51,200 nt of DNA from Pseudanabaena yagii GIHE-NHR1 (GTDB taxonomy: Bacteria > Cyanobacteriota > Cyanobacteriia > Pseudanabaenales > Pseudanabaenaceae): NCBI RefSeq assembly GCF_012863495.1, contig NZ_JAAVJL010000008.1:1-51200 (forward strand), read 5' to 3'. Below, piece by piece: positions 1-38,508 of the stretch (its first letter is position 1; each line of letters opens with the position of its first letter). Made by a program: the position numbers and the translations under genes. The notes below the pieces were generated by a model. It had not been told where the DNA came from, did no database searches, and saw only the letters and a program-made list of their open reading frames with translations.

Positions 1-2
1 AA

Positions 3-746
3 ATTAACGAATTTAAAGATGCAAAAATTATGCTTCTGATCGACGAATTCTCATATATTTATGGAGAGATTAAAAGAAATCAGATTCCAGATACTTTTAT
101 GAAATCTTGGAAGGCATTGCTAGAAAAGCGATATTTTGGTGCTATTTTAGTTGGACAAGATGTTATGCCTCAATTTATTGAAAGTTTTCCTAATGAGTTT
201 CAAGTGGCAGAAAGCCAGCGAGTATCTTATTTGTCAACTGATGATGCTCGTAAGTTGATTATTGACCCTATTCGTATTCTAGAAACAGGCGAAAGTCGAT
301 ACAAAGGAGAAGCTGTTATTAGATTAATTGAATTAACGGCAGGTAGCCCTTACTACATCCAAATTTTTTGCAATAGACTAGTTGAGTATATGAATCGCAA
401 GAAAGCCATATATGTTACTGATGCTGATATTGAGCGAGTTAAAGAGGATCTAATTAGTGGAAATAATTCTCTTGGAGACGCTGTATTTGACAACCTAACT
501 AGTGCTGGTGATACAAGTAGTGATAGTATACCAAAAAAAGATGCAGAGGCTGTTCTTCGTGGTGTAGCTCATGGCTCTCGTAGACAACAATTCTGTGATC
601 GCTCTGCTATAGTTGCAAGCACTTCAGTGCCCATTGATCAGGTCTTAGAAGATCTTGTTAAAAGGGAAGTACTTGAGAAAAGTCAATCATCCCTATTTCG
701 TATTCGAGTGAGCCTTTTTAAGGAGTGGTTACTAGCACATCAGTAA
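3..746 (+). CDS. AAA-type ATPase with C-terminal winged helix, 5' partial
   Basis: The reading frame is open to the left edge, so the N-terminus with the Walker A motif lies outside the window. The first visible methionine sits directly before a Walker B-like strand (LLIDEFSY), which shows this is the second half of a P-loop ATPase. The last 60 or so residues (SVPIDQVLEDLVKREVLEK, then SLFKEWL) look like the winged-helix tail of STAND/archaeal-type AAA ATPases. It lies 18 bp upstream of a second ATPase on the same strand, so the two are probably co-transcribed. There is no HIP1 site and the base composition is AT-rich, which suggests acquisition. The function is unknown; a defence or signalling role is inference from the neighbour's HEPN motif. 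Confidence 0.75.
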   Translation: MNEFKDAKIMLLIDEFSYIYGEIKRNQIPDTFMKSWKALLEKRYFGAILVGQDVMPQFIESFPNEFQVAESQRVSYLSTDDARKLIIDPIRILETGESRYKGEAVIRLIELTAGSPYYIQIFCNRLVEYMNRKKAIYVTDADIERVKEDLISGNNSLGDAVFDNLTSAGDTSSDSIPKKDAEAVLRGVAHGSRRQQFCDRSAIVASTSVPIDQVLEDLVKREVLEKSQSSLFRIRVSLFKEWLLAHQ

Positions 747-764
747 AAGAATAATAACAATAGA

Positions 765-2261
765 ATGACTACCTATCCTTTTTACAATCCATTTGCTGAC
801 AACGGTAAAATTATTTATGGAGAGCAATTTGTCGGTCGTCAAAATATATTAAGAACTATTCAGCAAATTGTTATTGATTCTCCTAGACCTGGTAATTTAG
901 CAATTGTAGGCGCTCCTAGAATTGGAAAATCTAGTCTTGCTTATCATGCGCTGATTTATCCACAACAGTTATTAATCGAAAAACGTATTTTATCGTTTAG
1001 AATTAACTTGCCTGATGTCAACAATCATGAGCAATTGTTTCGTGAATTCATCAAATCATCTCTAGAAACTATAGAAGATACTGATTTATCTAATAATGCA
1101 ATACTTTTGCAAGGGTTGAGAATTTTGGAAACAGAATTCCATTGGTTAGATCTGCAAAATGAGGTGCGAAAGTTCTTTAAAAAAATTAAGCGTGTTGGTT
1201 GGCGTGTTGTTATAGTGATTGATGAGTTTGATGAGGCTCGTCATATTTTCTCTGATGGAGTAGGATTTCAGGCATTGAGAGAGCTAGCATATCAACCAGA
1301 ATGGAGTGTAAGCCTAGTTACTTTGTCAAGAAGATCATTAACAGAAATCTGCAATCACTGTAGAGTAGATATATCAAACCTTCCTGGTATTTTTAAAGAT
1401 GAATATCTTCAATGCTTTGATCAAGAGGAATTAGTACATCTACTACAAAAATTTAATTTGATAAATCTTGAAGTTAGTCCTGAACTTTTTGAATTTATAT
1501 GGATTAATACAGGTGGACATCCATATTTAGCCTCGGCTCTGGCTTTTGAACTTTCTAAATCTTGGTTAGACAACAAAGCTTTAGATTTAGATAAGGCACT
1601 TCAAATATCAGTCTCTGAGTTTTTAAAATATTATGATGACTTAGTTAACATTCTCAAGGAAGATGGCTCTCTCGATAAGTTACTTGAGATTATATTTGGT
1701 CCTGTCATTACAGCGACAAAAGTTGACGCTGAGAGACTAGTTAAGTATGGTCTTATTCAAACTTCTATTGATGGCTATTATACTGGATTCTCTTCTCATT
1801 TTACAGATTATCTGCGATTAGTTGAGAGGTCAGTTGAACTATGGGTTCTTTGGAGAGAAACTGAAAAATACTTGCGCTTAGTAATTACTGAGGTAATGGA
1901 AAATGAGTATCAAACAAACGATTGGGTGTCAAAATTGGAGATTAGTCGTCCGAAATTAAAGACAATGTTAGAACAATGTTATCAGGCTCAGGAGAAGGAA
2001 AGGAAAAGTTTTGGTGGGCGTGCTTCAGGAAATATTTTAGATTTTACTTATCCAATGAATCTGTATGACATTATTGCAGCACACTGGAATCAATTTGAAC
2101 CAATTTTAAAGCAAAACAAAAATTACTGGTCTTTATGTTTTCAACTTCTTGCCAAAGTTAGGAATCCTATGGCTCATATTCGTGATCAAGTTATAGAAAC
2201 ACACGAAAGACAGAAAGCTGAAGGTTATTGCAGAGAACTACTTCACCTACTAAAGCGTTAG
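765..2261 (+). CDS. AAA ATPase with C-terminal HEPN-like motif
   Basis: The 498-residue protein has a clear P-loop at G49-S56 (GAPRIGKS), a Walker B strand ending in D153-E154 (VVIVIDEFDE) and a STAND-like middle region. The C-terminal part is helical and ends with R466-N-P-M-A-H471, which fits the R-x4-H catalytic signature of HEPN ribonucleases such as the Swt1 type. An N-terminal ATPase joined to a HEPN end is a known plan for stress- or phage-triggered RNases, but this R-x4-H is short and could be fortuitous. It follows another ATPase gene at 18 bp, so the two may form a sensor/effector pair. AT-rich and free of HIP1 sites. ATPase call confident; HEPN call tentative. Confidence 0.7.
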   Translation: MTTYPFYNPFADNGKIIYGEQFVGRQNILRTIQQIVIDSPRPGNLAIVGAPRIGKSSLAYHALIYPQQLLIEKRILSFRINLPDVNNHEQLFREFIKSSLETIEDTDLSNNAILLQGLRILETEFHWLDLQNEVRKFFKKIKRVGWRVVIVIDEFDEARHIFSDGVGFQALRELAYQPEWSVSLVTLSRRSLTEICNHCRVDISNLPGIFKDEYLQCFDQEELVHLLQKFNLINLEVSPELFEFIWINTGGHPYLASALAFELSKSWLDNKALDLDKALQISVSEFLKYYDDLVNILKEDGSLDKLLEIIFGPVITATKVDAERLVKYGLIQTSIDGYYTGFSSHFTDYLRLVERSVELWVLWRETEKYLRLVITEVMENEYQTNDWVSKLEISRPKLKTMLEQCYQAQEKERKSFGGRASGNILDFTYPMNLYDIIAAHWNQFEPILKQNKNYWSLCFQLLAKVRNPMAHIRDQVIETHERQKAEGYCRELLHLLKR

Positions 2262-2339
2262 AGATAAATATTTTAGTGATTTGGTTTGTACTTATCACTA
2301 TATATAATCAAGTTAAATATTGACAATGAGAATTATATT

Positions 2340-3479
2340 ATGAGCAAACAGAACCTAGAGAATAATCATAGTCCAAAGATTCTGCCACAAGTGGCTGAAT
2401 ATATCCGACTGTATACCGAAGCGAACTATCCGATTCGAGATATTGCCAAACAATGCAAAACATCAGTCTCCACCGTATACAACGCAATGGTCGCCGCAGG
2501 ATTTACAGAATTTAGATCGAAACACTCACGCGCCAGCCATACGAGAATGTCGATGGAGCAGCAGGCGATCGCCTTATACCAATCAGGACTAACGAGGTCA
2601 GCGATCGTCCAAAAATTAAATGTCGCCGCCAGAACCCTCAACAAAATCCTTGAAAAGCATAATATTCCCATTCGTCGGGGCATCGATCCCGTTACCTCAG
2701 CCAATCGCGCCGCCCAATACAACAAAGCCTACAACGATTACAACTTAACCCTGCGAGAAACCGCCGAGCTATTTGGTATCTCGCATCCGATCGTATTGCA
2801 GGAACTAAAGCGCAACGGCTACCCGATCCGACAAAGCGTAGACTCCAAAAACCGTTTGAAATTAAGACTAAAACATAAATTAGGCGGTATCGCAGGATTA
2901 GCCGTACCAAAACTGACCCCAAGGCAAAGAGAGCGCCGCCAGATTTTGCTACGAATCAGACAAAGGCAAGAAGATAAACTAAAGCAAAAACGATTGGAAG
3001 GCTATACCCGCGCCCAAGAATATTGGCAACTAGTCTGCGAGGGAGGACTAGACTTTGACCAAGTAGGCGCGATGTTTGGAGTCACAGGCAAAACCGTCGA
3101 ACGGATCATTAAGCGCAATGGTATTGACATCAAAGAACTATCACGGAAAGAAAAAGCCGAAGCATTCAAGGAAGACGCTGTAATCGCCAAGCAATATTGG
3201 GATCTTTACAACCAGCCCATGAGCCTAGAAAATGTGGGCAAATTATTTGGCTTAAGCGATTCCACGATTAGGCTAGTGCTGCTCAAGCATGGCTACGAAA
3301 TTCGTAAACGCGGACGATTATTCAACACTGCGCCCACCATAAGGAAACCCAAAAACCCTAAAAAGTCCAAGGTGGTAGTAGTATCAGAAGAAAGTGTCGT
3401 TGCAACTTCAAACGCTTTAGACTTTTTAGCACCGAATACACCGAATTTGCCTAATACAAAAGTCAAAAAATCTACTTAA
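2340..3479 (+). CDS. Protein with five tandem helix-turn-helix repeats
   Basis: An ATG at 2340 is preferred to the upstream in-frame start at 2286, because the product then begins MSKQNLENN just ahead of the conserved part. Five modules of about 42 residues each resemble a simple HTH: roughly residues 18-59, 72-112, 122-162, 226-267 and 283-325. Each has a helix, a turn with an ALA/LFG-type core, a recognition helix (STVYNAM, RTLNKIL, PIVLQEL, KTVERII, STIRLVL) and a closing G-x-x-I-R-like tail. A Lys/Arg-rich linker separates repeats 3 and 4. The protein is basic and surely binds DNA, perhaps a repeated site. It converges on the TraM-like end of the transfer operon. No exact family is recognised; a segregation, replication or transfer regulator is inference. 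Confidence 0.7.
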   Translation: MSKQNLENNHSPKILPQVAEYIRLYTEANYPIRDIAKQCKTSVSTVYNAMVAAGFTEFRSKHSRASHTRMSMEQQAIALYQSGLTRSAIVQKLNVAARTLNKILEKHNIPIRRGIDPVTSANRAAQYNKAYNDYNLTLRETAELFGISHPIVLQELKRNGYPIRQSVDSKNRLKLRLKHKLGGIAGLAVPKLTPRQRERRQILLRIRQRQEDKLKQKRLEGYTRAQEYWQLVCEGGLDFDQVGAMFGVTGKTVERIIKRNGIDIKELSRKEKAEAFKEDAVIAKQYWDLYNQPMSLENVGKLFGLSDSTIRLVLLKHGYEIRKRGRLFNTAPTIRKPKNPKKSKVVVVSEESVVATSNALDFLAPNTPNLPNTKVKKST

Positions 3480-3482
3480 ACG

Positions 3483-3560
3483 ATGACTTAAAAAGTAAAT
3501 ATTACGAAATTTTGAACATTTTTGGGCAGTAAAAGTTAGCTATTGTGTTTTTTAAGTCAT
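3483..3560. repeat. Inverted repeat between convergent genes
   Basis: ATGACTTAAAAA at 3483-3494 is the exact reverse complement of 3549-3560. The 54-base loop is AT-rich. It sits between the stop codons of two convergent genes, so a bidirectional terminator is possible; the loop is long for one, and a very small mobile-element remnant is an alternative. Confidence 0.5.
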
Positions 3561-3577
3561 GTATTGCCGCACCCGAA

Positions 3578-4264
3578 TTAACGGCGATCCTCATAGACTC
3601 TCTGGGTTTCAGGCAATACCCATAGGGCGCATAAACCTTTAGTCACATACTTGCCATTGAGAATAATTAAAGCTTCCTTGAGGTTTTGCTGATCCCGAAG
3701 GCAGGTTTTCAAAATATCCTGATTCCAGTCCACGAGATTCCTAGCTAGTTTGCCGTTGTCACTTGCCACCCACTCCAAATCCCTAGCGGATTGGGCATTT
3801 AGACTGGGTGTAGGTAAAAACAGTTTCGCGATCGCCAAGCCCGAAACCAGACCCGCCGCTAAGCCAATCATCAACATCCCTGCACAGAAACCAATGAAAG
3901 GTAAGCTAATCGCCCGCCAATATCCTTGGGATTCCTGATGCTGTTTGTTTTTGATGATATTCGCGATCGCCTGACTAATCGCCACCTCTTGCTCCTTAAC
4001 CGCAGTCTCGCGCAAAGTTGCCAGAAAGTCGCGGAACTTTTGGATACCAACATCGAAGCCTTTAGCTAAGGCACTTTGGAGTAGATTTGGCGCAGTGGCA
4101 ACCGTTGCCGCAACTTGGGCATTAGACAAGAAAATCGCAATGTAAGGATCGTTCTGGGGAATGCCAGACTTAGCCACAATCTCGTAGATTTTGGCTTTGA
4201 CCACGGGATCATAGTCATGGATGGCAATATCCAGATAGGTTTTGTGCAAGGGATCGCTATTCAT
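3578..4264 (-). CDS. TraM-like membrane protein of the transfer operon
   Basis: The 228-residue protein has a helical cytosolic N-terminal part (about 1-115), one strongly hydrophobic stretch at about 119-149 that could cross the inner membrane once or twice as a hairpin, and a polar C-terminal part of about 75 residues. It starts one base after the stop of the ParA-like gene, so the two are an operon. RP4 (traK-traL-traM) and R388 (stbA-stbB-stbC) also have a small DNA-binding protein, a ParA-like NTPase and a third protein beside oriT. The TraM assignment rests on position and topology, not on recognised sequence similarity. Confidence 0.5.
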   Translation of the reverse strand: MNSDPLHKTYLDIAIHDYDPVVKAKIYEIVAKSGIPQNDPYIAIFLSNAQVAATVATAPNLLQSALAKGFDVGIQKFRDFLATLRETAVKEQEVAISQAIANIIKNKQHQESQGYWRAISLPFIGFCAGMLMIGLAAGLVSGLAIAKLFLPTPSLNAQSARDLEWVASDNGKLARNLVDWNQDILKTCLRDQQNLKEALIILNGKYVTKGLCALWVLPETQRVYEDRR

Positions 4265-4265
4265 A

Positions 4266-4985
4266 CTAGGCTTTCAATCCCTGTGGTTGTTTGGTTTTGG
4301 CGAGAAGCCCAGTGGACTCAAAAGCTTTGTATGCTTCACGTAAATATGTTTTGATTTGATTTCTGCCAATGAGTCCAAATTCAGAGTAATTTGAAGCATC
4401 CTCGAAAGTAAGATGCTTAGCATTAATTTCGATTCGCCTACCATCACTCAACTTGGGAAAGTCAATCACAGCAACGTTGTATTCAGCGATCGCTTTCTGG
4501 ATCTCTTCGTGAGCTTTGAAGTAATCCCATTCATCGCAGCGCCCCCAATTTTTGATAAACACATGGGTGATATAGCCTTGATAATGTTCTAGCGACTCAG
4601 TGAATAGCTTAATTGAGTCACTTTCACCGTCACTGACAAACCACTTGATAAATGTCACGTCATGTTCCTTACCCAAATCTAGTAATCCTTTGGTGTCAAT
4701 CCATTTCGCCACTGCTCGGTGAGCCTGAGCGGGTAAATTGACGACAACCGTTTTCTTGAGTGCATATTCAAAAATGGCATCAGCGACATCAGCCATTTTT
4801 TCATTTTCTGAGAAAACAGCAGTTTTAGATTCTTTGTATATATCGAGGACAGTTGGGTTACTGCGATCTGTTTCAATACTGGTGAAAGAAATTTTGTTAT
4901 CGGTCAGGTATTGCAACATGGTGCGTGCGACCCAGCTTTTGCCTACACCACCTTTTTCCCCATCGATCAGGTTGATATTTGCCAT
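4266..4985 (-). CDS. ParA/MinD-like NTPase, TraL/StbB type
   Basis: A deviant Walker A motif (EKGGVGKSW, residues 9-17) typical of ParA/MinD/Soj proteins opens the 239-residue product. The second lysine-containing loop and the later strands (VVNLPAQ, TFIKWFVSDG, VAVIDFP) are compatible with this fold. RP4 TraL and R388 StbB are of similar length and sit at the same place in operons beside oriT. Such proteins position DNA in the cell or support transfer. It follows the short acidic gene by 14 bases and abuts the membrane-protein gene, so it belongs to a leftward operon reading away from the candidate oriT. Confidence 0.8.
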   Translation of the reverse strand: MANINLIDGEKGGVGKSWVARTMLQYLTDNKISFTSIETDRSNPTVLDIYKESKTAVFSENEKMADVADAIFEYALKKTVVVNLPAQAHRAVAKWIDTKGLLDLGKEHDVTFIKWFVSDGESDSIKLFTESLEHYQGYITHVFIKNWGRCDEWDYFKAHEEIQKAIAEYNVAVIDFPKLSDGRRIEINAKHLTFEDASNYSEFGLIGRNQIKTYLREAYKAFESTGLLAKTKQPQGLKA

Positions 4986-4999
4986 AATGTTGTCTCCTA

Positions 5000-5254
5000 T
5001 TATCTATTGAAGTACTTCAATATTTTTTGTTGTGCCAAATCATCATCGTAGTCATCATCGTCCACGGGGAGAGACTTTGGGACAATGCTTTGTGGTTTGA
5101 TGGTTGCCTTACTGCTGTTTGGCTTTACTACTGAGATTGGTTCGGAGCGATCGCTATTTTCTAAATCAGCAAGCTTTGTTAATGTAGGCGGCGTATTTGG
5201 ATTGGCAATACGATCCGACACGCTCATAGCCGTTTGTGGACTTACATTAGACAT
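5000..5254 (-). CDS. Short Pro/Ser-rich acidic protein, possible frameshift extension
   Basis: The 84-residue product has no recognised domain. It is rich in Pro, Ser and Thr and has a run of aspartates (VDDDDYDDD) before the end. Its ATG overlaps the stop codon of the preceding gene (TAATG). The same reading frame stays open upstream of this ATG back to an A10 tract inside the preceding gene, and encodes a plausible charged segment (AESREKRAAAKSVRAL). It may therefore be the C-terminal domain of one fused protein rather than a separate protein. Confidence 0.5.
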   Translation of the reverse strand: MSNVSPQTAMSVSDRIANPNTPPTLTKLADLENSDRSEPISVVKPNSSKATIKPQSIVPKSLPVDDDDYDDDLAQQKILKYFNR

Positions 5255-5595
5255 TAACGATTGAGTCTGGTGTAATGCTCGAACTGATTTTGCGGCGGCG
5301 CGTTTTTCTCTAGATTCAGCTTTTTTTTTTCTTCAGAGATTTTCTTGAGATACTGTCTGAGAGTCGGATTAGAAATAGTGAAATGCAGTTCATCTTTCAG
5401 CTTTTCACAGACGGCATCATAGGAATATCCCGAAGCAACTAAAGCTCTAATCCCTACTTCAAGGGTACGGATAATGTCTATCTTCTTCCTTAGTTTATTG
5501 CACTTTTGTGTGGAGTTAGCCCACTGATCGGATAAGGCTACCAACTTATCAGCGTCTAGCTCCACAAGTGTGGAATCTGAAATATTTTCAGTCAT
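5254..5595 (-). CDS. TraK-like small DNA-binding protein, first gene of transfer operon
   Basis: The 113-residue protein has helices around residues 45-90 (GIRALVASGYSYDAVCEKL, then ISNPTLRQYLKKI), which resemble the small basic HTH-like proteins encoded first in the operon beside oriT, such as RP4 TraK. Translation starts about 0.8 kb from the divergent mobC gene, with the candidate oriT in between. After residue 92 the annotated frame runs out of a ten-adenine tract into a short tail; a -1 shift there would replace that tail and fuse the product to the next gene. The oriT-binding role is inferred from position and size. Confidence 0.6.
   Translation of the reverse strand: MTENISDSTLVELDADKLVALSDQWANSTQKCNKLRKKIDIIRTLEVGIRALVASGYSYDAVCEKLKDELHFTISNPTLRQYLKKISEEKKKLNLEKNAPPQNQFEHYTRLNR
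5320..5326 (-). other. Slippery heptamer A-AAA-AAG within A10 run
   Basis: The coding strand reads ten adenines then G (5330 down to 5320). In the zero frame the codons are GAA AAA AAA AAG CTG, which places A-AAA-AAG, the heptamer used by dnaX and many IS elements, exactly in phase. A -1 shift gives 92 + 106 residues, a 198-residue fusion with the downstream gene. An eleventh adenine lost in sequencing would have the same effect. Confidence 0.5.
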
Positions 5596-6388
5596 TGTTG
5601 TAACTATATTTTTCTTTCATGGTTGTTTTAAATTTAGCTAGCGCATTTCTCAGATATGGCGATCGCTCAGCAAGTTTACTAACATACTGATTTTATAAAT
5701 ACCTAAATCTATTAGCGCCTTTATCATAGCTATAAACAGAGAATAGTGGGTATTTTTTTGTTTTTATTTTTTTAGTTGCGAATATTAAAAGACTTTTTAA
5801 AGATACTTAATTTAAGAGTCGATAACGTAGAAGTGATGAAAAATTAATTTTTAGTATAGAGTTTTCTTGCTTTTAGTAAGAGTTTTTTTATGCTGCGATA
5901 ATATATTTTTACTATTAATTTCCAAAGAAAATAACTACTGACTCCATATTTTTTGTTCGGAGTAGATATTTTTTTTCGACAGGCTCATATAATTTTTTCG
6001 ACAATTTCTCACGGATCGACAACATTGAGCGAACGATTTTGCGTCGTTTGCGGTATATGTGTCGATTGCGGCAAGCTATGTTGCTTGTCGGACAAGAAAT
6101 CGCACTAACGTTTGATTTTTGTTCGACAGCAACATTAACGCTTGCCAAAGGGGAATTCCCCCTTTGGATTCCCCCTTTAACAAAAAACAAAACTGTCAAT
6201 TAAAAAAACTGAACCGTAACTAATTGTATGCAAATTATTTTTTGCAGATCTAAAACATTTTAAAATTCAAGTCTGCGTGAAAAAATGTAGACTATATTTG
6301 TGGCAGGCGAGTATATCTCGTCGAGTTTCTTGTTTTTGAATATTTGTTCAACAACATTTGTACAAAATAAACTTTAGGAATAGCAGTA
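5596..6388. promoter_or_regulatory. Candidate oriT and divergent promoter region
   Basis: This 793-base AT-rich gap separates the divergent traK-like and mobC genes, which is where plasmid oriT regions lie. TTCGACA occurs at 5975, 5997 and 6122, ATCGACA at 6015, and the inverted form TGTCGAT at 6060. A small hairpin (CAAGC/GCTTG) spans 6072-6087, and a strong one (CCAAAGGGG/CCCCTTTGG) spans 6145-6167. The nic site was not identified. An open frame at 5915-6199 has no plausible protein features. Confidence 0.5.
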
Positions 6389-6778
6389 ATGACTTTATCC
6401 GTTAGATTTACGGTACGCATGACTGAAGATGAAAAAGCTTTATTGGAGGAAAAAGCAAGCAAACTGAATGTTAATTCAAGCGAATTTGTCCGATGTGCAA
6501 CTTTTAACTACGATCCACCATCACCACAAATCCAAGTGGCTAGCGTTGACTGGAAGATATACCACCTGTTAGGGCAGGTTAAATTTGAGTTGAATAAAAT
6601 TGGTACCAACGTTAACCAGTTAGCGCATGATGCCAATTTAAGCGTAATAATGGGGAGTCCCATGCAGTCACAACTTGAAGAACTAAATGAGTTCTCTGGC
6701 TGTCTCAATCAACTTATCGGCTTAATGTCCGAGATGAGATCTCAGATTACGGATAGTACAGGCGTAAAACCTAAGTAG
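6389..6778 (+). CDS. mobC: MobC-like relaxosome accessory protein
   Basis: The 129-residue protein begins with a ribbon-helix-helix-like segment (SVRFTVRMTEDEKALLEEKA) and contains the MobC signature region ending in KIGTNVNQLAHDAN at about residues 70-83. MobC/NikA-type proteins bind oriT and help the relaxase reach the nic site. An AGGAA ribosome site lies 7 bases before the ATG. The relaxase gene follows at 9 bases, so the two are co-transcribed. The first gene to the right of the candidate oriT, divergent from the traK-like gene. Confidence 0.8.
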   Translation: MTLSVRFTVRMTEDEKALLEEKASKLNVNSSEFVRCATFNYDPPSPQIQVASVDWKIYHLLGQVKFELNKIGTNVNQLAHDANLSVIMGSPMQSQLEELNEFSGCLNQLIGLMSEMRSQITDSTGVKPK

Positions 6779-6787
6779 GAAACAAGG

Positions 6788-8305
6788 ATGATTGGTAAAA
6801 TTATTAAGGGAAGTGGCTTTCAAGGTTGTCTGTGTTATGTGATGGGGAAAACTGGCGCAGCGGTGATCGATACGAATATGGATGGAAATAATCCATATAG
6901 TCTAGCGACTGAGTTTTCTCTATCATGGCAACTGCGCCCTAAACTAGGGCATACAGTTTGCCACATAATCCTCAGTCTCAGTCCTGATGAGCATCTTAAT
7001 GATGTTTCTTGGCAGAAGGCGATCGCGCAATATCTTAAAGAAATGGGATTCACTAACAATCAGTACATAGCTGTAAAGCATACTGACCAAGAAAATCACG
7101 AACATATTCATTTAGTAACCAGTCGAGTGAAGATGGATGGTTCCGTTGTCTCAGATAGCTGGGACTGGATTCGTAGCCAAGATGTAATCCGAAAATTGGA
7201 AAAAGACTTTGAATTAGAGTCAGTACCTTCAAGTTGGGAAAGCGATCGCCAAGAGCAAACTAAAAACCAGATTGAAAATGAGAAACAAACGGGCAAGTCT
7301 ACAGTCAAGAGGCAACTTGCAGACAGGATTGACCTAGCCATAACGAACACCACAGCACTGCCAGATTTTATTGAGCAGTTAAATCGTGAAGGGATTGAAG
7401 TCAAGGTTGACCGAGATCGCAAGGGAAAACCTAAAGGTATTGCTTATAAATTCGATGGTGTGAGCATGGCTGGCTCAAGCGTAGGCAAGGCTTATTCATT
7501 GCCGCGTATTTTAAAACGGCTGGATAATGTTTCTGAGCGGGGAATCCAACTTAGTACTTCTGACTTTGTATCTCATATATCGCTGGTAATCAGGGAGCAA
7601 GTAAAAGCAGGAATGACCATGCCCCAGTTTGTTGAGCAGCTTCGACAATCAGGAGTGGATGCTCATGTCAAATACACCCGCAATAAGAAGGTTAAGGGTA
7701 TTTCCTATAGTTTTGGAGATAACAGCATTCAAGGTAATGAATTGGGAAAAGAGTTTAGCTGGGGCGGACTCCAGAAGCATTTACAGGTAAGTTACGATCC
7801 AGTGCGGGATATGCCAATTATTCTGGAGATGCAGGGAGCTAATTCTAAGGCGACAAGTCAAGAATCTCTTCCTCAAGTATCCGAAGGACTACCAGATAGT
7901 TTATTTGCCGAGCTTGCGCTGGAACTAGAAAGACTGCGATCTCTACGATTACCCAACCCAATTCAGCCCGAGAATGTGATTGAGAATAAGCTCTCAATCA
8001 CCCCAGAACATGAAGGCATGGATAAAGCTCATCTGGTCGCCGCGCTCTGCCATCAACTTCTTAATGAACTAGGGGCTGATAATTTTGGAGAAACGGGCAA
8101 GAATTCTTACAGTATCCAACGAAGTGGAGATGCTCTGACAGTTGAGAGTTTACGAGGCGATCGCCAGATCATCTTGCAGGTCAAGGGACAGGAAATTGAA
8201 TTTGCCAATTTAAGCGAATTTGATATCCAACAATTTGAGCAGGCTTGGCAGTATCGATCTCAAGCACAGCAACAAAGTATTGACTCACAAGCCAAAATTG
8301 GATGA
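6788..8305 (+). CDS. mobA: Relaxase/mobilisation nuclease with duplicated C-terminal repeat
   Basis: The first 130 or so residues match the Relaxase family: a start with IIKGSGFQGCLCYV that includes the likely nicking tyrosine Y18, and the metal-binding motif III with H98, D100, H104, H106 and H108. Such enzymes cut one strand at nic, stay covalently bound to its 5' end and are carried into the recipient by a type IV secretion system. The five-His/Asp layout suggests a MOBP/MOBV-like class. After the nuclease, a unit of about 60 residues occurs twice (about 196-260 and 276-340; LPDFIEQLNREGIEV and MPQFVEQLRQSGVDA). A coupling protein and VirB10-like protein are encoded 18 kb away. Confidence 0.87.
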   Translation: MIGKIIKGSGFQGCLCYVMGKTGAAVIDTNMDGNNPYSLATEFSLSWQLRPKLGHTVCHIILSLSPDEHLNDVSWQKAIAQYLKEMGFTNNQYIAVKHTDQENHEHIHLVTSRVKMDGSVVSDSWDWIRSQDVIRKLEKDFELESVPSSWESDRQEQTKNQIENEKQTGKSTVKRQLADRIDLAITNTTALPDFIEQLNREGIEVKVDRDRKGKPKGIAYKFDGVSMAGSSVGKAYSLPRILKRLDNVSERGIQLSTSDFVSHISLVIREQVKAGMTMPQFVEQLRQSGVDAHVKYTRNKKVKGISYSFGDNSIQGNELGKEFSWGGLQKHLQVSYDPVRDMPIILEMQGANSKATSQESLPQVSEGLPDSLFAELALELERLRSLRLPNPIQPENVIENKLSITPEHEGMDKAHLVAALCHQLLNELGADNFGETGKNSYSIQRSGDALTVESLRGDRQIILQVKGQEIEFANLSEFDIQQFEQAWQYRSQAQQQSIDSQAKIG

Positions 8306-8392
8306 GCTACCATGAGACAGTTTTGCGTCTTGCTAAAGCACGGTACAAAATAGAGATCGCCCATTCCCACGTCTGATGATCAAAAATTCACT

Positions 8393-9019
8393 ATGCATAT
8401 AGATCCCAGCACAACATCCTCCCAAGACAACTACAAACTATTAACAAATCTGGTAGTCCCCCGCCCGATCGCATGGGTAACCACCCAAAATAGCGAAGGA
8501 GTGATCAACCTTGCCCCCTTCAGTTTCTTTAACGCGATCGGTAGCAATCCCCTATACCTCGTCATCAGCATAGGCAACAAAGACGATGGCAGCCCAAAAG
8601 ATACCGCCGCCAATATTATCGCTAATCGAGAATTTGTCGTTAATCTCGTAACAGAAGATTTATTAAGCGCGATGAACATCTCCGCCGCCAACTTCCCAGC
8701 CGAAGAGAGCGAACTCACCGCCGTTGGACTCCATGAAGCCGAATCGAAACGAGTCAAAGTTCCCCGCATCGCTGAAGCGAAAGCAAGTTTAGAATGTGTA
8801 CTGCATAGCCAACAGCCATTAGGAGCCTACAATCTAATCATCGGTGAAGTCGTGATGTTTCATGTGGATGACAGCATCATTGGCGATCGCTACCATATAG
8901 ATGGATTTACGCCCATCGGTAGAATGGGTTCACCTGCCTACTATTGTCGGACAACTGATAAATTCGACCTCCCACGCATTTCCTACGAGCAATGGCAACA
9001 AGAGAATCAAATCGGTTAA
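8393..9019 (+). CDS. Flavin reductase-like FMN-binding split-barrel protein
   Basis: The 208-residue protein follows the pattern of the flavin reductase-like/DIM6-NTAB family: VVPRPIAWVTT near the start, LAPFSFFNAIGSNP, and a long C-terminal strand region with FHVDDSIIGDRYHIDG. Members bind FMN and reduce flavins or act as oxygenase partners; the substrate cannot be read from the sequence. HIP1 sites are present. It lies 31 bases before an aldo/keto reductase gene, and both are likely chromosomal-type metabolic cargo beside the transfer module. Confidence 0.85.
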   Translation: MHIDPSTTSSQDNYKLLTNLVVPRPIAWVTTQNSEGVINLAPFSFFNAIGSNPLYLVISIGNKDDGSPKDTAANIIANREFVVNLVTEDLLSAMNISAANFPAEESELTAVGLHEAESKRVKVPRIAEAKASLECVLHSQQPLGAYNLIIGEVVMFHVDDSIIGDRYHIDGFTPIGRMGSPAYYCRTTDKFDLPRISYEQWQQENQIG

Positions 9020-9050
9020 CGTAGAGCATTAGCAAACAAGAAACCAACCA

Positions 9051-10037
<987 letters not shown>

Positions 10038-14264: not shown

Positions 14265-17200
14265 TCAATTCAAAAAACAGCCCAACCACTCAATCAAGAA
14301 ATGCACCTGCTTATCCCCAGGGAGGAGAGCCAGACTCGTGATCTTAATTCTGCCCTTCTCGAAAGAGAAACGATAATAGAACTCAATCGGGATCTTCGCA
14401 TGAAGCAACTCCCAAAGCGAATCCGTCAGCTTCGATTCTAGAAACAGATCGCGCCCATCCTCCGACGCATAAATGCGAAACACCCCAACCTTACGCGCCA
14501 CCAACTTCAGTTCCATCACCCTGAGTAACACCTGAGTTTCTTCAGGCAAAGCCCCATACAGACCCTCCCAAACCGCAGCCAACTTGAGAATCTCCTCCTT
14601 CGACTTCACCTTCGCCAAAGTCAAATAAGCATTAATCTTCGTCTCATTGTCCTCTATGTAAGTGTCAGGAATAAAAGCAACCAAACGAGGCAACTGAAGC
14701 TCAGTATCCGCAACTTCAGGCAAAATCTTCCCCCGTAACTCATTAATATATTCCTGAAGCAAATCCATATATAGCGCAAAGCCAATCACATCCGCCTGAC
14801 CCGACTGCTCCTCACCCAACAAATCCCCCAACCCACGAATCTCCATATCGCGCATCGCCAGTTGATAGCCCGAACCAAGCTGACTAAATTCCTGAATCGC
14901 ATCCAATCTCCTCTTCGCTGAATCTGTCAACTCAAGATTAGGCGGATACAGCAAATAGGCCTGAGCCTGAATTCCCGCCCGACCAACGCGACCGCGTAAT
15001 TGATAAAGTTGCGCCAAACCCAACTTATGAGCATCCTCAATCACAATCGTATTCACACGCGGAATATCCAAACCCGACTCAATAATCGTCGTACAGAGGA
15101 GAATATCCGCCTCATTGTTATTAAAAGCAACCATCGCCGACTCTAACTCCGACTCCTGCATCTGCCCATGCGCGATCGCTAATCTCACATTCGGTAACAT
15201 TGTTTGCAAAGAAACAGCGATCGCCTCAATCCCCTCAATACGTGGCACAACATAAAACACCTGACCACCACGGTCTAATTCATGACGAATTGCTGTTTTC
15301 ACCAGTGACGCATCATAAGCAGACAAATGGGTTTGAATCGATCGCCTTGAGGGAGGAGGAGTCGCAATCACACTCATTTCCCGTACCCCAGAAAGCGCTG
15401 CATAGAGAGTACGCGGAATCGGCGTAGCACTCAGAGTCAATAAATCCACATCTCCCTTCATCGCCTTGATTTTCTCCTTCTGCAAAGTCCCAAAGCGTTG
15501 CTCCTCATCAATTACCAGCAAACCCAGATCGTGAAACTCAACATCCTTAGACAAAAGCTGATGCGTACCGACAATGACTTGCACCTTGCTATCGGCAACC
15601 TGTTGCAACACCTGCTTGCGCTCCTTCGCAGGGCGAAACCGATTCACGATCTCCACAGTGAAAGGATAAGCCGCAAACCGAGTTTGGAGCGTATGGAAAT
15701 GCTGCTGTGCCAGAATCGTCGTCGGAGCTAACAGAGCCACTTGTTTACCCGCACAAACCGCCTTAAAAATTGCTCTTACCGCCACCTCTGTTTTACCGAA
15801 GCCGACATCACCACAAACCAGCCGATCCATTGGGCGATCGCTTTCCATGTCTTGCTTCACATCTTGAACAGCCTTGACCTGATCTGGTGTCAGTTGATAG
15901 GGAAAAGAATCCTCCATTTCCTGTTGCCAATCGGTATCAGGTGGAAAAGCATAGCCGACTAAATTGGCGCGGCGGACATAGAGTTGCAGTAAATCCCTTG
16001 CTAACTTGTAAATCTCCTTTTGACATTTGCTCAGGGCGTTATCCCAGCCCTTTGTGTTGGCGATGCTATTTAACTTAGGAGGCTTGTTAGAAGCACTACG
16101 ATAGCGGGAGAGGATCTTCTCATTTTCTGGCGCGATCGCCACCGCAGTTTTACCATCAGCAAACTCAACGATGTAATGCGGTTGCTTTTCTCCCTTCACT
16201 TCAATGGTTTCAAAGCGCGTAAACTTGCCAATCCCATACTTACGATGCACGACATAATCACCAACATTTAGCTCGTCAGGATTAACTGACTTAGCCGTAT
16301 TCAATCGTGAAGGATGCACAAAGGTTGGTGATGCTAGTAATTGCTGTCCGAATAATTCGCGATCTGTCAAGAGGGCAAGCTTACAACTAGGCAAAACAAA
16401 GCCTTGCATCTCCATCAGTCCCGAATATTTTAAAATCACTGGTTTACCAGCTTTCTGAATTCGTGCAATTGACTGTAAATCATCAGGATCACTGACAAAG
16501 TTAGCAATACAGTCATACTCTTTGAGCAAGGTTGCCACACGCAAAGGTTGCGCCGAAATCAGGGTGACTTGATATTCTGAGTTGAGATATTCGCGAATCA
16601 GGGCTGCAATCTGGTCAAACTGATGGGGAACTATGGGAATAGAGGCACTGGCAAAATCAAAAATATTGGCTCTGGGTTTAAGCGATCGCTCGCTAAGTTG
16701 AAGCATCTGAAACTTCTTCGCCTCAGTCATGCACTTAGTAAAGTCCCAATGCAGTTTCGGTGTATCGGCTTGCGATTGATTTTGATAAAGTTCTTCCGCA
16801 GCTTCGTACCAGCGATCGCCATAGCTCTGACATTGTTCGGGTTCATCAATAGCGACAATAAAATCCTTGGGTAAGTAATCCAGTAATGTGGCTTTATGAG
16901 TATAAACAAACTCATACAAATCGACAGGGGCGATCGCTATGCTGGATAGGTCAGTGAAGCTTTTAGGATTAGTTGGGTCAAACTCTCTGATTTTCTCGAC
17001 AGTGCCGCGATTGCAGCTTAGGCGCACTGGTAGATTTCGATTAACTGGAAATACTTCAAAACTAAATCCTTTGTGGCTCCATTGTTTTGATTCCTTTACT
17101 TCTTTGACTTCTTCATATCCTAATCTTGCCAGAGCCTCGGCAAGTAATTTAACTGATTGCGAATCACCGATATTGAGATAGAGGCTATGTTTTTGGAAAA

Positions 17201-17615
17201 CTTGAGTGGATGGTAGATGGGGTTGTAGAGCGTTAATGGTGGTAGCGATCGCTAAGTTATGCTGTGGTTTGGCAAGCAGCTCTGCTAATATCTCAATCCT
17301 TGTCCAAGCGGTTTCTAAATCGATTTGAGCGGATTCGTAGGGAAATGTATCAAGGGGTTGATATAGATAGACGCGCCATGACATGGACTGGAGTTGTAAA
17401 GCCCATCGGGTTGCTTCTTCGACTGTGGCAGTGACGATGAGTAATGGTTTGGTTTGTTGTTGGCATAGGTGGGTGCTAATCAGTCCTTTGCCTAAGCGGG
17501 ATAGTCCTGACAGGGATATGCTTTTGGCTGTTTTGAGTTTCTCGCCTATTTTTGTGGCGATCGGCGATCGGGCTATGTTCTCTAGGACTGATGTGAAGGT
17601 CATGGGTATAGTCAT
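14265..17615 (-). CDS. mfd: Transcription-repair coupling factor Mfd
   Basis: The 1,116-residue protein has the Mfd domain order. A UvrB-homology N-terminal part is followed by the RNA polymerase interaction domain ([19 protein letters not shown]) and a RecG-like SF2 translocase with Walker [16 protein letters not shown] box [17 protein letters not shown] and the C-terminal motifs [10 protein letters not shown], and then a TRCF end domain. Mfd removes RNA polymerase stalled at lesions and recruits UvrA. The ATG overlaps the stop of the upstream small gene (ATGA), so translation is probably coupled; a second in-frame ATG lies at 17603. It is a housekeeping gene in an otherwise accessory neighbourhood. 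Confidence 0.97.
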
Positions 17616-20723: not shown

Positions 20724-22991
20724 TCAAGGCAACTTTTTCGGACTAGGTTTAGCCACTTTACTCGATCGCTTCGGCTTTCCCTGAGCAGCTTTCTTCTCCT
20801 TACCCTTTGAAGCTTTACCCAAATTCGGCTTAGCCGCCTCATCCAGATCACCAAACTTCTTCGACCACCACCTCTCCTGAGAAGACCAGAAAAAGACCAC
20901 ATCCGCATGATCCTTGCGTTGCCGCGCCTGAACATCCGCACACTTCAACATTACCTTATCCACACCATCCTTAGTATAGGGAAACTTAGCCAAAGGCTTA
21001 CCACAAACAGGACAAGCAAAACTAGTCGCCTCCGCCGTTACTGCATTCTCACCCTTCGGTTGAGGAATCTCCCACTGATTACAGCGATCGCTCCAAAACA
21101 TCACCAGATTCTCACAGCCATGCTCACACTTGAGAAAATGCCCACCACTCACCTTCTTAGAAGGAATCTTACTGAGCGGATGACTACAATCAGGACAAGC
21201 CACATCTGAAAGCTCATTTTTACGATTACTTGGCTGTAAATCCGCACCGAGATTCGTATAAGCTCGCGCCAACATCGGCTGAAAATAGGACTGATGCCAA
21301 CCAATCAAATAGCTTTGCCACTCCAACTTACCCACCGAGATTTCATCCAAAGTCGTCTCCATGCCTGCGGTAAAATCGGCTCTGAGCAGATCAGGGAAAG
21401 TTTTATGCAACACATCATCCGTAGACATTCCCAAAGCCGTAGGTTCGAGAACCTTCCCTTTGAGTAACACATAGGTTCTATCCTTAAGCGTCTTGACGAT
21501 CGCCGCAAACGTACTCGGTCTACCCACACCCTGACGTTCTAGCACTTGTACTAGCTTCGCCTCGCTATACCTAGCAGGAGGTTGAGTTTGCTTCTGCGTA
21601 AACCCCGCATTTGCCAAAGCCAAGGTCTGACCGCTCGTTAACGCAGGAATATGTTTATCTTTACTCAAATCATTCCAATAGCGCGTATAACCTGCAAAGG
21701 TGAGAATACTGCCCCTAGTTTGCCAGAGCGTCGAACCTGCCTGAATAATCACCCGACTTTTTTGAATCAAAGCATTCGCACATTGAGAAGCAACGGCTCT
21801 GCGCCAGATTAACTCATAGAGTTGATGCTGTGTCGCACTGAGATGGTCTCTCACCGTTTTTGGAGTAATACTCAAATAGGTAGGACGAATCGCTTCATGG
21901 GCGGATTGAGCATTAGCTTGTTCACGATAACGAGTAGTTTTTTTAGGCACATTATCAGGATCGTGTTTCGACAGCCATTCCTTCACCTCAGCACAAAACT
22001 CAGGCGCAAGACTGGTGCTATCAGTGCGGTGATAGGTAATCAAACCCTTACGACCTTGAGGCAAATCGACACCCTCAAACAACTCTTGAGCCACCTTCAT
22101 TGTCTCTTCAGGTGATAGCCCTAATCTCACGGAAGCTGCTTGCTGGAGCGAACTGGTAATGAAAGGCGGCAACGGTGATTTCTGAGCAGTGACACCCGTA
22201 GCCTCGCGAACGACATGGGGATGATTACGCGCAACTTGAATAATTCTGGCTGCTTCCGCTTCCGACAATACCCGTTTTGATTCAACCGTAGATTCCGTAT
22301 TCACTTCCGCCGCATCATCGGTAACATCCTGATCGTCAAGCACAGGCTCTATCTCACTACTACCCGCATAGAAAGCCGTGAAGCCTTCAGCATATTCCGT
22401 CCATACAGACCAGTAAGTAATCGGCACAAAGGCACTAATCTCCCGTTCACGCTGACAGACAATGTGCAAAGCCACCGACTGCACCCGACCAGCCGAGCTA
22501 CCGCCACTTGTCCGCCGTACTAAAGGCGAAACCTTAAACCCAATCAACCGATCCAAACATTGTCTAGCGCGTTGCGCCGAAATCAAGTTCAAATCTAACT
22601 GATGAGCATTGGCGATCGCTGCTTTAACCGCCGTAGGTGTAATCTGGTTATAGACAGCACGTTTGGGATTACGAAGATGCAATTGCTGTTGTAAATGCCA
22701 TGCAATCCCCTCACCCTCGCGATCGCCATCAGTGGCAAGCACCACTTCTGAAGCATTCTTCACAGCAGCGCGAAGTTTAGTGACTACCTGTTGACCTTTG
22801 CCTTCAGTCAGTTGATAGCGACATTCAATTTTGTTGGTATCTTTGTGCATGGTAAAACCCAAGCTATCTTCACCATCTTTGGCAAGTTCTGTAAAGTGTC
22901 CAAAGGAAGCTTCCACTTGCCATTCATCGCCAAGGATGGCTTGAATGGTTTTGCACTTGGATGGAGATTCAACGAGTAATAGCTTTTTCAT
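20724..22991 (-). CDS. topA: DNA topoisomerase I (type IA)
   Basis: The 755-residue protein has the TOPRIM start (LLLVESPSKCKTIQAIL, with DGDREGEGIAWHL), the catalytic tyrosine in LITYHRTDSTS, and Zn-ribbon-like cysteine sets near the end (ACPDCSHPL, FACPVCGKPL). It ends in a Lys-rich tail (ASKGKEKKAAQGKPKRSSK), a feature of cyanobacterial TopA. It relaxes negative supercoils. It lies close to conjugation genes, and plasmids such as RP4 carry their own topoisomerase (traE), so it may be the chromosomal topA or a plasmid copy; HIP1 sites show long residence in the host. Confidence 0.93.
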   Translation of the reverse strand: MKKLLLVESPSKCKTIQAILGDEWQVEASFGHFTELAKDGEDSLGFTMHKDTNKIECRYQLTEGKGQQVVTKLRAAVKNASEVVLATDGDREGEGIAWHLQQQLHLRNPKRAVYNQITPTAVKAAIANAHQLDLNLISAQRARQCLDRLIGFKVSPLVRRTSGGSSAGRVQSVALHIVCQREREISAFVPITYWSVWTEYAEGFTAFYAGSSEIEPVLDDQDVTDDAAEVNTESTVESKRVLSEAEAARIIQVARNHPHVVREATGVTAQKSPLPPFITSSLQQAASVRLGLSPEETMKVAQELFEGVDLPQGRKGLITYHRTDSTSLAPEFCAEVKEWLSKHDPDNVPKKTTRYREQANAQSAHEAIRPTYLSITPKTVRDHLSATQHQLYELIWRRAVASQCANALIQKSRVIIQAGSTLWQTRGSILTFAGYTRYWNDLSKDKHIPALTSGQTLALANAGFTQKQTQPPARYSEAKLVQVLERQGVGRPSTFAAIVKTLKDRTYVLLKGKVLEPTALGMSTDDVLHKTFPDLLRADFTAGMETTLDEISVGKLEWQSYLIGWHQSYFQPMLARAYTNLGADLQPSNRKNELSDVACPDCSHPLSKIPSKKVSGGHFLKCEHGCENLVMFWSDRCNQWEIPQPKGENAVTAEATSFACPVCGKPLAKFPYTKDGVDKVMLKCADVQARQRKDHADVVFFWSSQERWWSKKFGDLDEAAKPNLGKASKGKEKKAAQGKPKRSSKVAKPSPKKLP

Positions 22992-36460: not shown

Positions 36461-36562
36461 AAGGTTTGCTGGGGAGGTTACTCCTAGATGTTCGCCGCCA
36501 TATAGTTTTGAAACGGTCAGTTCTCCGAGGATATTGTGGAATTTTAATGGGCTGCTAGTCAT
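36461..36562 (-). pseudogene. N-terminal piece of a gene cut by the transposon
   Basis: An ATG at 36562 with TTGAGAA before it opens a frame (MTSSPLKFHNILGEL) that runs for 34 residues up to the transposon end, then two foreign codons and a TAG. It may be the start of the gene whose end lies at 31510-31758, or of a different gene if DNA was lost. No family is recognised. Confidence 0.45.
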
Positions 36563-36958
36563 GGGCTTTTTCTCAATTTAAAAAGCACCTCATTCCATAA
36601 ATGAGGCGCTGTGCAACTTTTGTGGGGTGAAATACTCCCTAGATCTGCCGCTAGGCTACTTAAAGAAACGAGATATTAAGCCTAGATAAAGTTTTGACAA
36701 CAAACTTATCTATGGCTGCAAATCTAAGCGATATTAGTTACAGATTTGGATACCTTACCGGGTAAATAGAAAAACCAACAAATCCCCATCACTTTTTGAA
36801 GCGACGTTACCGCAATAGCGATCGCTTTTTTATTGGCTAAAGTTTATCTGGCGATCGATTCACTAAGGCTAAAATTTTGAAGTAGCATCAAAGGTAATGT
36901 TATGGCTTCATGGTTATCTATGGTTGAACCTATTACGATAACTGATATTTTCTAAAGT
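36563..36958. promoter_or_regulatory. Non-coding gap with terminator module A and an inverted repeat
   Basis: The gap holds a hairpin terminator on the minus strand (see next entry), an imperfect inverted repeat (GATAAAGTTT at 36685-36694 and AAACTTATC at 36702-36710) and a HIP1 site. No further gene is seen. The promoter of the JAMM protease gene must be here. Confidence 0.45.
36579..36610 (-). terminator. Intrinsic terminator A (minus strand)
   Basis: On the minus strand AGCGCCTCAT and ATGAGGTGCT form a stem (9 of 10 pairs) followed by TTTTT. The surrounding 92 bases (36567-36658) are shared in imperfect form with 38426-38518. Confidence 0.6.
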
Positions 36959-37471
36959 ATGGCTATTTATCTATCCCCTGAGCATCGAATCTCTATGCAA
37001 AGCCACGCCGAAGCAGCTTATCCAGAGGAATGTTGCGGTTTGCTTTTGGGTCTAATCCAATACTCAGATCCTCCTATCAAGATTGTTAGTGAAGTTCAGG
37101 CGATGCGTAATATCTGGAACAAAGAATCGGCTCTTAATTTTCAATTGCCTTCGGGTTCTGATCCTAGTTCCCAAGAAGGGCATGGTGTTAGTAAGATTGA
37201 CCGCTACAGCATCGATCCTCAAGAAATGCTCGGCGTTCAACAAAAGGCACGGGAATGCAGTTTGGAGATTATTGGCATTTATCACTCCCATCCAGATGCT
37301 AGGGCAGTTCCTTCTGCCTTCGATGAGGCGATCGCTTGGCCACTATACTCCTATGCGATCGTTTCTGTTTTTCAAGGGAAAACAGACGATCTGCAAAGCT
37401 GGATGCTTGATGACAAGGGGAACTTCCAAAGTGAGCCGATTCATCTCTTGGCAACTAAGCAGATCCTTTAA
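36959..37471 (+). CDS. JAMM/MPN-domain metalloprotease
   Basis: The 170-residue protein has the full JAMM signature: an early glutamate in AYPEECCGLLLG and H-S-H-P-x6-S-x2-D in HSHPDARAVPSAFD, the zinc site. Bacterial single-domain members (M67, Mec-like) process sulfur-carrier or ubiquitin-like proteins or release cysteine. Length is typical. The gene ends 5 bases from the end of a convergent cyclase gene. Cyanobacterial relatives are often beside moeB/cysK-type genes; none is seen here. Confidence 0.87.
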   Translation: MAIYLSPEHRISMQSHAEAAYPEECCGLLLGLIQYSDPPIKIVSEVQAMRNIWNKESALNFQLPSGSDPSSQEGHGVSKIDRYSIDPQEMLGVQQKARECSLEIIGIYHSHPDARAVPSAFDEAIAWPLYSYAIVSVFQGKTDDLQSWMLDDKGNFQSEPIHLLATKQIL

Positions 37472-38292: not shown

Positions 38293-38436
38293 AAGTAATA
38301 CTTACTTCACTTTTTATCGTCTCACAGATAACTCTCAAATAGGGGGAAGAGTCATACAATTGTGAGAAATCATCTTTAACAGATGTTCTGATTCCGCAAT
38401 TTCGATGTGCAAGTAGTCATGGATTTGTTCTCAATT

Positions 38437-38470
38437 AAAAAACGAGTCAATCCTCTTAAGAATTGACTCG
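38437..38470 (-). terminator. Intrinsic terminator B, downstream of methyltransferase
   Basis: CGAGTCAAT (38443-38451) pairs with ATTGACTCG (38462-38470), followed on the minus strand by TTTTTT. It belongs to a module of about 92 bases that recurs at 36567-36658. Confidence 0.65.
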
Positions 38471-38508
38471 CTCGGTAGTTTTGGTGTGGTTACTCTCTAG
38501 CTCGGTCG

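Follow-up and report, generated by a model that had tools for sequence, protein, structure and literature searches.

A gene carried by large plasmids of Pseudanabaena raises the question of what a protein made of five successive helix-turn-helix (HTH) modules would recognize, and what it would do for the plasmids that keep it. Standard regulators were taken in the original prediction to have one or two HTHs, which is broadly right, although tandem arrays are known, including the three HTHs of archaeal Cbp1 (described in PMC10883916). The window (the whole stretch of DNA that was analysed, 51,200 bases) is contig C8 of its genome, and contig C5 of the same genome carries a second copy of the gene, 69% identical. 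Where genomes, contigs and loci have to be told apart, they are cited by labels of the type G022, C4 and L029. The window showed no terminal overlap of 16-200 bases that would point to circular closure, and a 403-codon open frame across its joined ends was judged by eye to be two unrelated proteins and was set aside. No description of the five-HTH protein was found in the titles or abstract openings of the open-licence papers searched.

The reading frame begins at an ATG that matches the start of the closest homologues, and a TTG at 2286, which they do not have in common, was rejected as a start (features of the locus are collected in Table 1). HTH profiles and two AlphaFold2 models confirm that five tandem HTH modules are present in one chain, and structure prediction, which had been proposed as a check, gives five separate three-helix folds both in the window protein and in a homologue that is 67% identical to it, so that two lineages of the gene are represented. 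For the window protein (an alignment of 8 sequences), AlphaFold2 places three-helix units at residues 16-52, 72-106, 120-158, ~225-259 and ~283-316, a beta-hairpin after module 3, and long helices at 194-233 and 265-290, the first of which continues from the linker into module 4; the scores (pLDDT 66.6, pTM 0.34) are such that the model gives the modules and not their relative placement. The homologue yields the same five-unit series, again as modules and not as a relative arrangement (pLDDT 69.1, pTM 0.32), and the two models are not independent because their alignments have most sequences in common. The basic linker that had been expected in the middle of the protein was found and is conserved. 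Modules 1 to 5 end in the tails GFTEFR, HNIPIRR, NGYPIRQ, NGIDIKE and HGYEIRK, and the short motif that ends the protein is common to both lineages of the gene, with small departures, and is missing in the truncated copy on plasmid pPg_01.

Table 1. Features of the five-HTH locus, in window coordinates (AF2, AlphaFold2)
Feature	Position	Strand	Remarks
Slot cargo of the window	30..2261	+	No family match for the ORF at 30-746; AAA_16 and HEPN_Swt1-like parts of the gene at 765-2261 score below their Pfam cut-offs
Five-HTH protein gene	2340..3479	+	379 aa plus stop; large-plasmid gene of Pseudanabaena
HTH module 1	2385..2522	+	Residues 16-61; AF2 helices 16-26, 32-38, 43-52; best HTH_7 stretch 18-47
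HTH module 2	2553..2687	+	Residues 72-116; AF2 helices 72-81, 86-93, 97-106; best HTH_23 stretch 73-107
HTH module 3	2697..2843	+	Residues 120-168; followed by a predicted beta-hairpin, strands 163-167 and 173-177
Conserved basic linker	2847..3008	+	Residues 170-223; 33 of 54 positions invariant in 21 orthologues
HTH module 4	3009..3143	+	Residues 224-268; AF2 and leave-one-out profile
HTH module 5	3180..3323	+	Residues 281-328; AF2 and leave-one-out profile
Basic C-terminal tail	3324..3476	+	Mostly low model confidence; ends in short motif AT..ALD.L..NTKVK
Noncoding element TAAATRTTA(C)	3496..3505	+	Just 3' of the stop codon
DUF6753 gene	3578..4264	-	PF20538, E 1.2e-31; convergent with the HTH gene, its most constant neighbour
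MobD-like P-loop NTPase	4266..4985	-	Weak TraL similarity, 31.5 of 360 bits
First operon gene beside oriT	5000..5595	-	TraK-like by place only; split here into 5000-5254 and 5254-5595
oriT-like inverted repeat	6071..6153		Strongly conserved in an alignment of 16 regions
mobC (6389-6778) and relaxase (6788-8305)	6389..8305	+	NikA-like/MobC and Relaxase Pfam matches; diverge from the operon

Alignment of the modules, a second proposed check, asked whether they represent one duplicated HTH type, and the answer holds for modules 2-5, which are related, and for module 1 in weak form only. Leave-one-module-out profiles built from lineage B recovered modules 3, 4 and 5 at 19.1, 15.5 and 33.1 bits, against best scores of 4.9, 5.8 and 7.5 in 1000 shuffles; modules 1 and 2 were not recovered by these profiles in the window protein. 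In pairwise shuffle tests the three pairings among modules 3, 4 and 5 reached z values of 8-12, modules 2-4 and 2-5 gave 5-6, modules 1-3 gave 4.2, and modules 1-5 and 2-3 about 2, while pairs 1-2 and 1-4 had no significant likeness. Profile-profile comparison assigned a probability of 65-97% to nine of the ten module pairs and 0.5% to pair 1-2, and identity between modules is 11-30%. Judged from their sequences, modules 3-5 are clearly one duplicated type, module 2 is linked to modules 4 and 5 by duplication, and module 1 is the most diverged and weakly related. As a weak control, an HTH_23 scan of two whole genomes (E<=0.01) listed two matches in the G022 C4 and G022 C5 copies and in no other frame; the window's own copy had one match and the C5 copy none, and a short frame in G000 C2 was flagged with weaker neighbours.

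Among the best 25 of 28 Pfam matches, those above the cut-offs belong to HTH-type families only: HTH_23 (E 1.5e-16, three stretches), HTH_7 of resolvases (2.8e-13, two stretches), the ISL3 HTH, HTH_28, HTH_38, HTH_40 and two sigma-70 region 4 families, with Sigma70_r4 at 38.5 bits over a cut-off of 24.1, a similarity that is limited to the region-4-like HTH. These same 25 matches, down to the weakest at E 0.12, contain no catalytic domain, and specifically no resolvase catalytic domain, no HNH, GIY-YIG or LAGLIDADG nuclease domain, and no ParB_N domain; HTH_ParB reaches 14.6 of the 22.6 bits required. The protein is like resolvases in its HTH_7 stretches and unlike them in having no catalytic domain there. 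The original prediction had set similarity to a recombinase or homing-type family against its own reading, and among these matches such similarity is present for the HTH parts only.

The closest known counterparts are proteins that read DNA through several HTHs in one chain. The best NCBIfam profile is NF040595, HTH_Cbp1, a CRISPR DNA repeat-binding protein (E 4.1e-12), and the best PDB sequence match is the CRISPR repeat binding protein 2lvs (phmmer E 0.0042; Foldseek rank 14, E 0.17). Because the profile score of 46.2 bits lies below the curated cut-off of 140, the five-HTH protein was not placed in the Cbp1 family and is regarded as a tandem-HTH DNA reader in kind. According to PMC10883916, the three duplicated HTHs of Cbp1 bind along one CRISPR repeat, 5' to 3', and Cbp2 has two. 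Like Cbp1 and Cbp2 of Crenarchaeota, the protein appears to have arisen by duplication of HTHs in one chain, with modules 2-5 related; it differs in having five modules, in the long conserved linker between modules 3 and 4, in its occurrence on bacterial plasmids, and in that repeat searches of the window gave no CRISPR-like array. By inference from this analogy, it may work as Cbp1 does. SETMAR, Tc3 and Mos1, as well as the PAX6 paired domain, have two HTHs in tandem on one site and appear at Foldseek ranks 3, 8, 9 and 39; they are unlike the present protein in that E values are 0.09 and weaker with low TM-scores, and in that here there are five modules and no transposase domain. Foldseek returned no match at E<=0.001, its top row (E 0.0028) being an integrative model with TM-scores of at most 0.15.

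What the five modules would read can be approached through their recognition helices, which are unlike one another. Invariant positions in the 21 orthologues amount to 27 of 50 in the recognition helices, 32 of 50 in helix 1 and 27 of 35 in the tails (the linker is given in Table 1); since the recognition helices are no more conserved than helix 1, conservation alone is no pointer to base reading. The argument for a long site rests on the difference between modules together with retention between orthologues: recognition helices that vary from module to module, yet mostly persist from one orthologue to the next, are better matched by a single long asymmetric site than by a short repeated one. 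The "long or repeated DNA site" that had been predicted is thus narrowed to its first half, with the repeated site disfavoured. A single DNA address of unusual length is the probable target of the whole array. To our knowledge, tandem-HTH proteins that read one long asymmetric site are rare in bacteria.

From sequence, we infer DNA binding at one long site in a monomeric mode. In the mechanism proposed here, the five modules, each with its own recognition helix, would lie along a single asymmetric site that we estimate at ~40-60 bp, in the layout by which Cbp1 sets three HTHs along one CRISPR repeat, and the protein would probably act as a monomer. Occupancy of the site would regulate local transcription or form an architectural block of the plasmid core region, with its action placed at the border of the mobilization operon and the replication/cargo slot, and the conserved linker and the motif at the C-terminus may bring in a partner. 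The best reading is that of a lineage-specific plasmid-backbone DNA-binding regulator or architectural protein; that it is a sequence-specific backbone protein, bound at one long site from which it regulates or shapes the core region, has a probability of about one half. That the output would be regulation or architecture, and not partition or transfer, is a guess, and the default one for an HTH protein. If true, the protein would be a natural modular DNA reader, with a module-to-base code derivable from the five recognition helices and the site; it would add a new type of component to the backbone of large cyanobacterial plasmids and would also offer a handle on a plasmid slot that exchanges replication and defence genes.

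The distribution of the gene bears on the lineage-specific part of this reading. When 388 genomes of the class, from 160 genera, were searched with a profile, 14 had the gene, every one of them a Pseudanabaena; the gene or a fragment is present in 14 of the 26 genomes of the genus (among them G012, a record titled Phormidium tenue that groups with the same genus here) and in 15 of 58 relatives overall, the fifteenth being a weak 77-residue match in another family (G037), which was the sole match outside the genus. Six of 72,556 plasmid records match, again all Pseudanabaena; 50,697 phage records gave no match, and none of 98 pattern matches in viral contigs was confirmed. No relatives were found beside CyRepA1 or DUF6753 in other cyanobacteria (phmmer E<=0.01, all open frames of 8 loci), and an "HTH regulator" adjoining CyRepA1 of Synechococcus PCC 7502 was dismissed as a relative, having no phmmer match. 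P. galeata CCNP1313 has one copy on each of four plasmids (of five smaller contigs), one of them truncated by insertion. The counts given below refer to 21 copies and leave out the contig-end fragments G013 C94 and G013 C157, the short G006 C412 match and the weak G037 match. Within lineage B, the median dN/dS is 0.088 over 120 pairs, indicating purifying selection, and pN/pS is 0.07-0.21 over all five modules and the linker, which speaks for a function that is retained; between the two lineages, synonymous divergence runs from 1.29 to saturated.

A binding site for the five-HTH protein was sought by alignments of the flanks, intergenic comparison and repeat searches, and none was found. Conservation upstream of the 21 copies is found mainly among those adjoining CyRepA1, along with a leader just 5' of the ATG in many copies, and alignment downstream of 20 copies (the truncated pPg_01 copy left out) shows TAAATRTTA(C) and terminator-like repeats. 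The element TAAATRTTA is present in 19 of 21 copies, missing from the truncated copy on pPg_01 and altered at one base in G019 C122, and is kept although synonymous divergence between lineages is saturated; elsewhere than at the gene, TAAATRTTAC turned up on four of six plasmids searched, one of the four being the control. It is the sole candidate that stays with the gene and may equally be part of a terminator. Noncoding elements common to nearly all copies are confined to this one and the leader-like stretch before the ATG, and neither is tied to the protein. The intergenic DNA of C8 was compared with that of C5, pPg_05, pPg_04, ABRG53b and a control plasmid that lacks the gene (200,000 of 216,652 bases used), which gave many backbone matches and no element that could be assigned to gene-bearing plasmids beyond the mobilization region. 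A paired element at 36533-36669 and 38391-38538 was rejected as a binding site, since it looks like a terminator. No iteron or CRISPR-like arrays were found at the gene in repeat searches of window positions 1-9000 and a tandem-repeat scan of the whole window, and no RNA families reached gathering score in positions 1-10000.

The surroundings of the gene consist of a constant side and a variable side. Downstream, DUF6753 converges on the HTH gene in 19 of 21 copies (one broken, in G022 C4, and one shortened at its start, in G019 C122), which bears out the predicted position at the edge of the transfer region; on pPg_01 it lies beyond the insertion, and G012 C27 has a stop-broken DUF6753 remnant elsewhere on the contig. 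The MobD-like NTPase follows in 18 of 21 copies, one of them split by a transposase, and the first operon gene, which is about 197 aa in most relatives, has no convincing family match. The order of the operon is one that we take to resemble traKLM-oriT-traJI of IncP plasmids, and three of six related plasmid records are typed MOBP. Alongside the oriT-like repeat, different plasmids have different repeat-rich stretches.

Upstream lies a slot that is occupied by CyRepA1, whole or in part, in 12 of 21 copies; nine of these match over at least 1017 residues and three are partial. Cargo was typed at nine loci (G019 C122, G022 C2, G012 C27, G024 C1, G011 C52, G003 C58, G021 C2, G005 C60 and the window), the other slots being clustered by similarity. 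It includes a fused Hachiman gene (G011 C52), Septu with type I restriction (G012 C27), DarTG with a UvrD-type gene (G003 C58), an N6-methylase and a metallo-beta-lactamase-like gene with moderate defence matches (G022 C2), a Dsr1-like part (G005 C60), a trypsin-like gene (G024 C1), an LRR-Roc-COR gene (G019 C122), and type II methylase matches beside a CyRepA1 fragment (G021 C2); the C5 slot has a Tn3-type element. In eight copies the closest gene call upstream has the same orientation as the HTH gene, at a distance of 13-170 bp; these calls are five cargo genes, the Tn3 gene on C5 and two short ORFs. On the far side of the slot, where the contig reaches it, most copies have a PRTRC-like cassette (PRTRC_A, PRTRC_B and ThiF-type matches, all below cut-offs), which neither C5 nor C8 of the window's genome has. 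A single-stranded DNA-binding protein gene lies ~8-11 kb upstream in several annotated plasmids; such genes, along with anti-defence genes, abound in the leading regions of conjugative plasmids (PMC11541004). With cargo typed at nine loci and no enrichment claimed, the slot beside oriT may be a defence hot spot (L055, L048, L047, L031, L056, L059).

The original prediction further held that the protein may organise oriT, partition or replication DNA, roles that are here rated as less likely than regulation or architecture. The HTH gene has remained open on G022 C4, whose mobilization operon is broken, and on G012 C27, which no longer has the operon. Nine of the 21 copies, both of those in the window's genome among them, have no adjoining CyRepA1, eight of the nine being open to the end; since the gene stays open without either partner, neither alone explains it. 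Four sister loci have the same PRTRC and mobilization order, with DUF6753 64-68% identical and a gene of ~595 aa in the slot, and no HTH gene (phmmer, all open frames, E<=0.01); some plasmids that do have the HTH gene carry the ~595 aa gene at another position. Among 15 close CyRepA1 places (at least 62% identity, 26 genomes of the genus), 13 are on the same contig as the HTH gene, which together with the sister loci suggests that the gene belongs to a CyRepA1-type backbone lineage without being strictly tied to one partner.

Replication control, in which the protein would bind near the CyRepA1 gene or the origin and set copy number or timing, draws on this same association, the two remaining CyRepA1 places being fragments. 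CyRepA1 is the immediate divergent neighbour across 279 bp in four copies, and it is a known replication protein of cyanobacterial plasmids, those of the large plasmids still being only partly known (both according to PMC10899382). The copies that are open with no CyRepA1 beside them count against this role, as does the window's genome, which has no CyRepA1 match at all, and replication control is thus a doubtful reading.

Partition would make the protein a centromere-binding factor that replaces ParB and acts with the MobD-like NTPase or a distant ParA. The seven genomes searched have 15 contigs with the HTH gene, and ParA matches lie on ten of them; six of these ten (G022 C4, C5 and C6; G021 C3; G012 C56 and C67) have no ParB_N match, C8 has neither, and a P-loop NTPase is encoded in the convergent operon. 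The top row of a VIA search is a ParB HTH over 44 residues of module 4, tied with other HTHs at Z 6.3, the highest value obtained and under the level that the tool calls telling. Against these points, the ParA genes are ~29 kb or more from the HTH gene, four of the 15 contigs (G000 C5, G021 C2, G024 C1, and G022 C2 with its broken copy) have both ParA and ParB, and no iterated centromere-like repeats were found at the gene. Moreover, pPg_03 (= G022 C4) and pPg_04, two plasmids of one strain, encode near-identical proteins, with 5 non-synonymous and 14 synonymous changes over residues 17-320. A partition function is accordingly rated as unlikely.

A further rival is transfer, in which the protein would be a relaxosome accessory factor or mobilization regulator that binds near oriT. 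In its favour are the mobilization operon, a neighbour in 19 of 21 copies, and the strongly conserved oriT-like repeat beside it, but the gene is open on G022 C4 and G012 C27, where the operon is broken or gone, and is missing from the four sister loci that have the same operon order; this role, too, is improbable. More speculative is a reading in which the five-HTH "address reader" would fix one unique long site per plasmid and mark or protect the junction where replication and defence modules exchange beside the transfer origin, as a dedicated boundary protein of the plasmid defence hot spot, a long shot at present.

The protein might instead derive from a phage HNH/homing-type or transposon protein, as a remnant or a domesticated DNA-targeting piece that has lost its nuclease and has no plasmid function. 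The best PHROG matches are to an HNH endonuclease family (2.3e-17), D5-like regulators (8.3e-16) and DNA invertases (1.4e-13). Phage HTH-array proteins of these kinds (the HNH endonucleases phrog_8446 and phrog_7545, and the D5-like regulators phrog_323) match in several stretches or long spans, phrog_323 aligning over residues 5-196, and differ in that the best 25 of 28 Pfam matches here include no HNH or other catalytic domain. The TnsD match is weak (21.4 of 32.4 bits), and a TnsD/TniQ target selector was rejected on that score. Purifying selection over all five modules and the linker speaks against a remnant, and no nuclease or transposase is constant alongside the gene, which leaves this origin very improbable. 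Equally remote is a regulator of, or marker for, defence cargo in the adjoining slot: same-strand cargo ends upstream at 39 bp (Hachiman), 106 bp (Septu PtuB) and 170 bp (the UvrD-type gene after DarTG) in three copies, with two weaker cases at 78 bp in the window and 34 bp for the Dsr1-like part, but the 12 slots with CyRepA1 or part of it include a single one scanned for defence genes (G021 C2, where they were found), and the five-HTH protein itself has only a 25-residue PADLOC match.

Several other genes of these plasmids were noted. A PRTRC-like cassette lies at L029 4325-6593, with homologues (PRTRC_A, PRTRC_B and ThiF-like), and six contigs with the HTH gene have ParA and no ParB_N match; the name of the PRTRC cassette includes a ParB-related protein. 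In the window, a JAB-domain gene at 36959-37471 has a desampylase-like match below cut-off, and no other PRTRC-like gene was found on the contig. On pPg_01 (L059/L030) a Tn3-type transposase with a recombinase-like neighbour cluster lies in the 3' portion of the region of the HTH gene, and on C5 (L036) it is found 125 bp upstream of the gene; the Tn3 transposase of C8 (31818-36387) is away from the HTH gene, and its end regions match those on C5. The 591-aa product of L128 5327-7099 and its homologues are uncharacterised proteins of many cyanobacterial plasmids, including a 44,343-base plasmid of Synechocystis PCC 6803; on several Pseudanabaena plasmids their genes lie a few kb away from a ParA match, and this protein is possibly a second replication or partition protein. 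Finally, the reverse strand of the window encodes Mfd (14265-17615) and type I topoisomerase (20724-22991) matches, both above the NCBIfam cut-offs.
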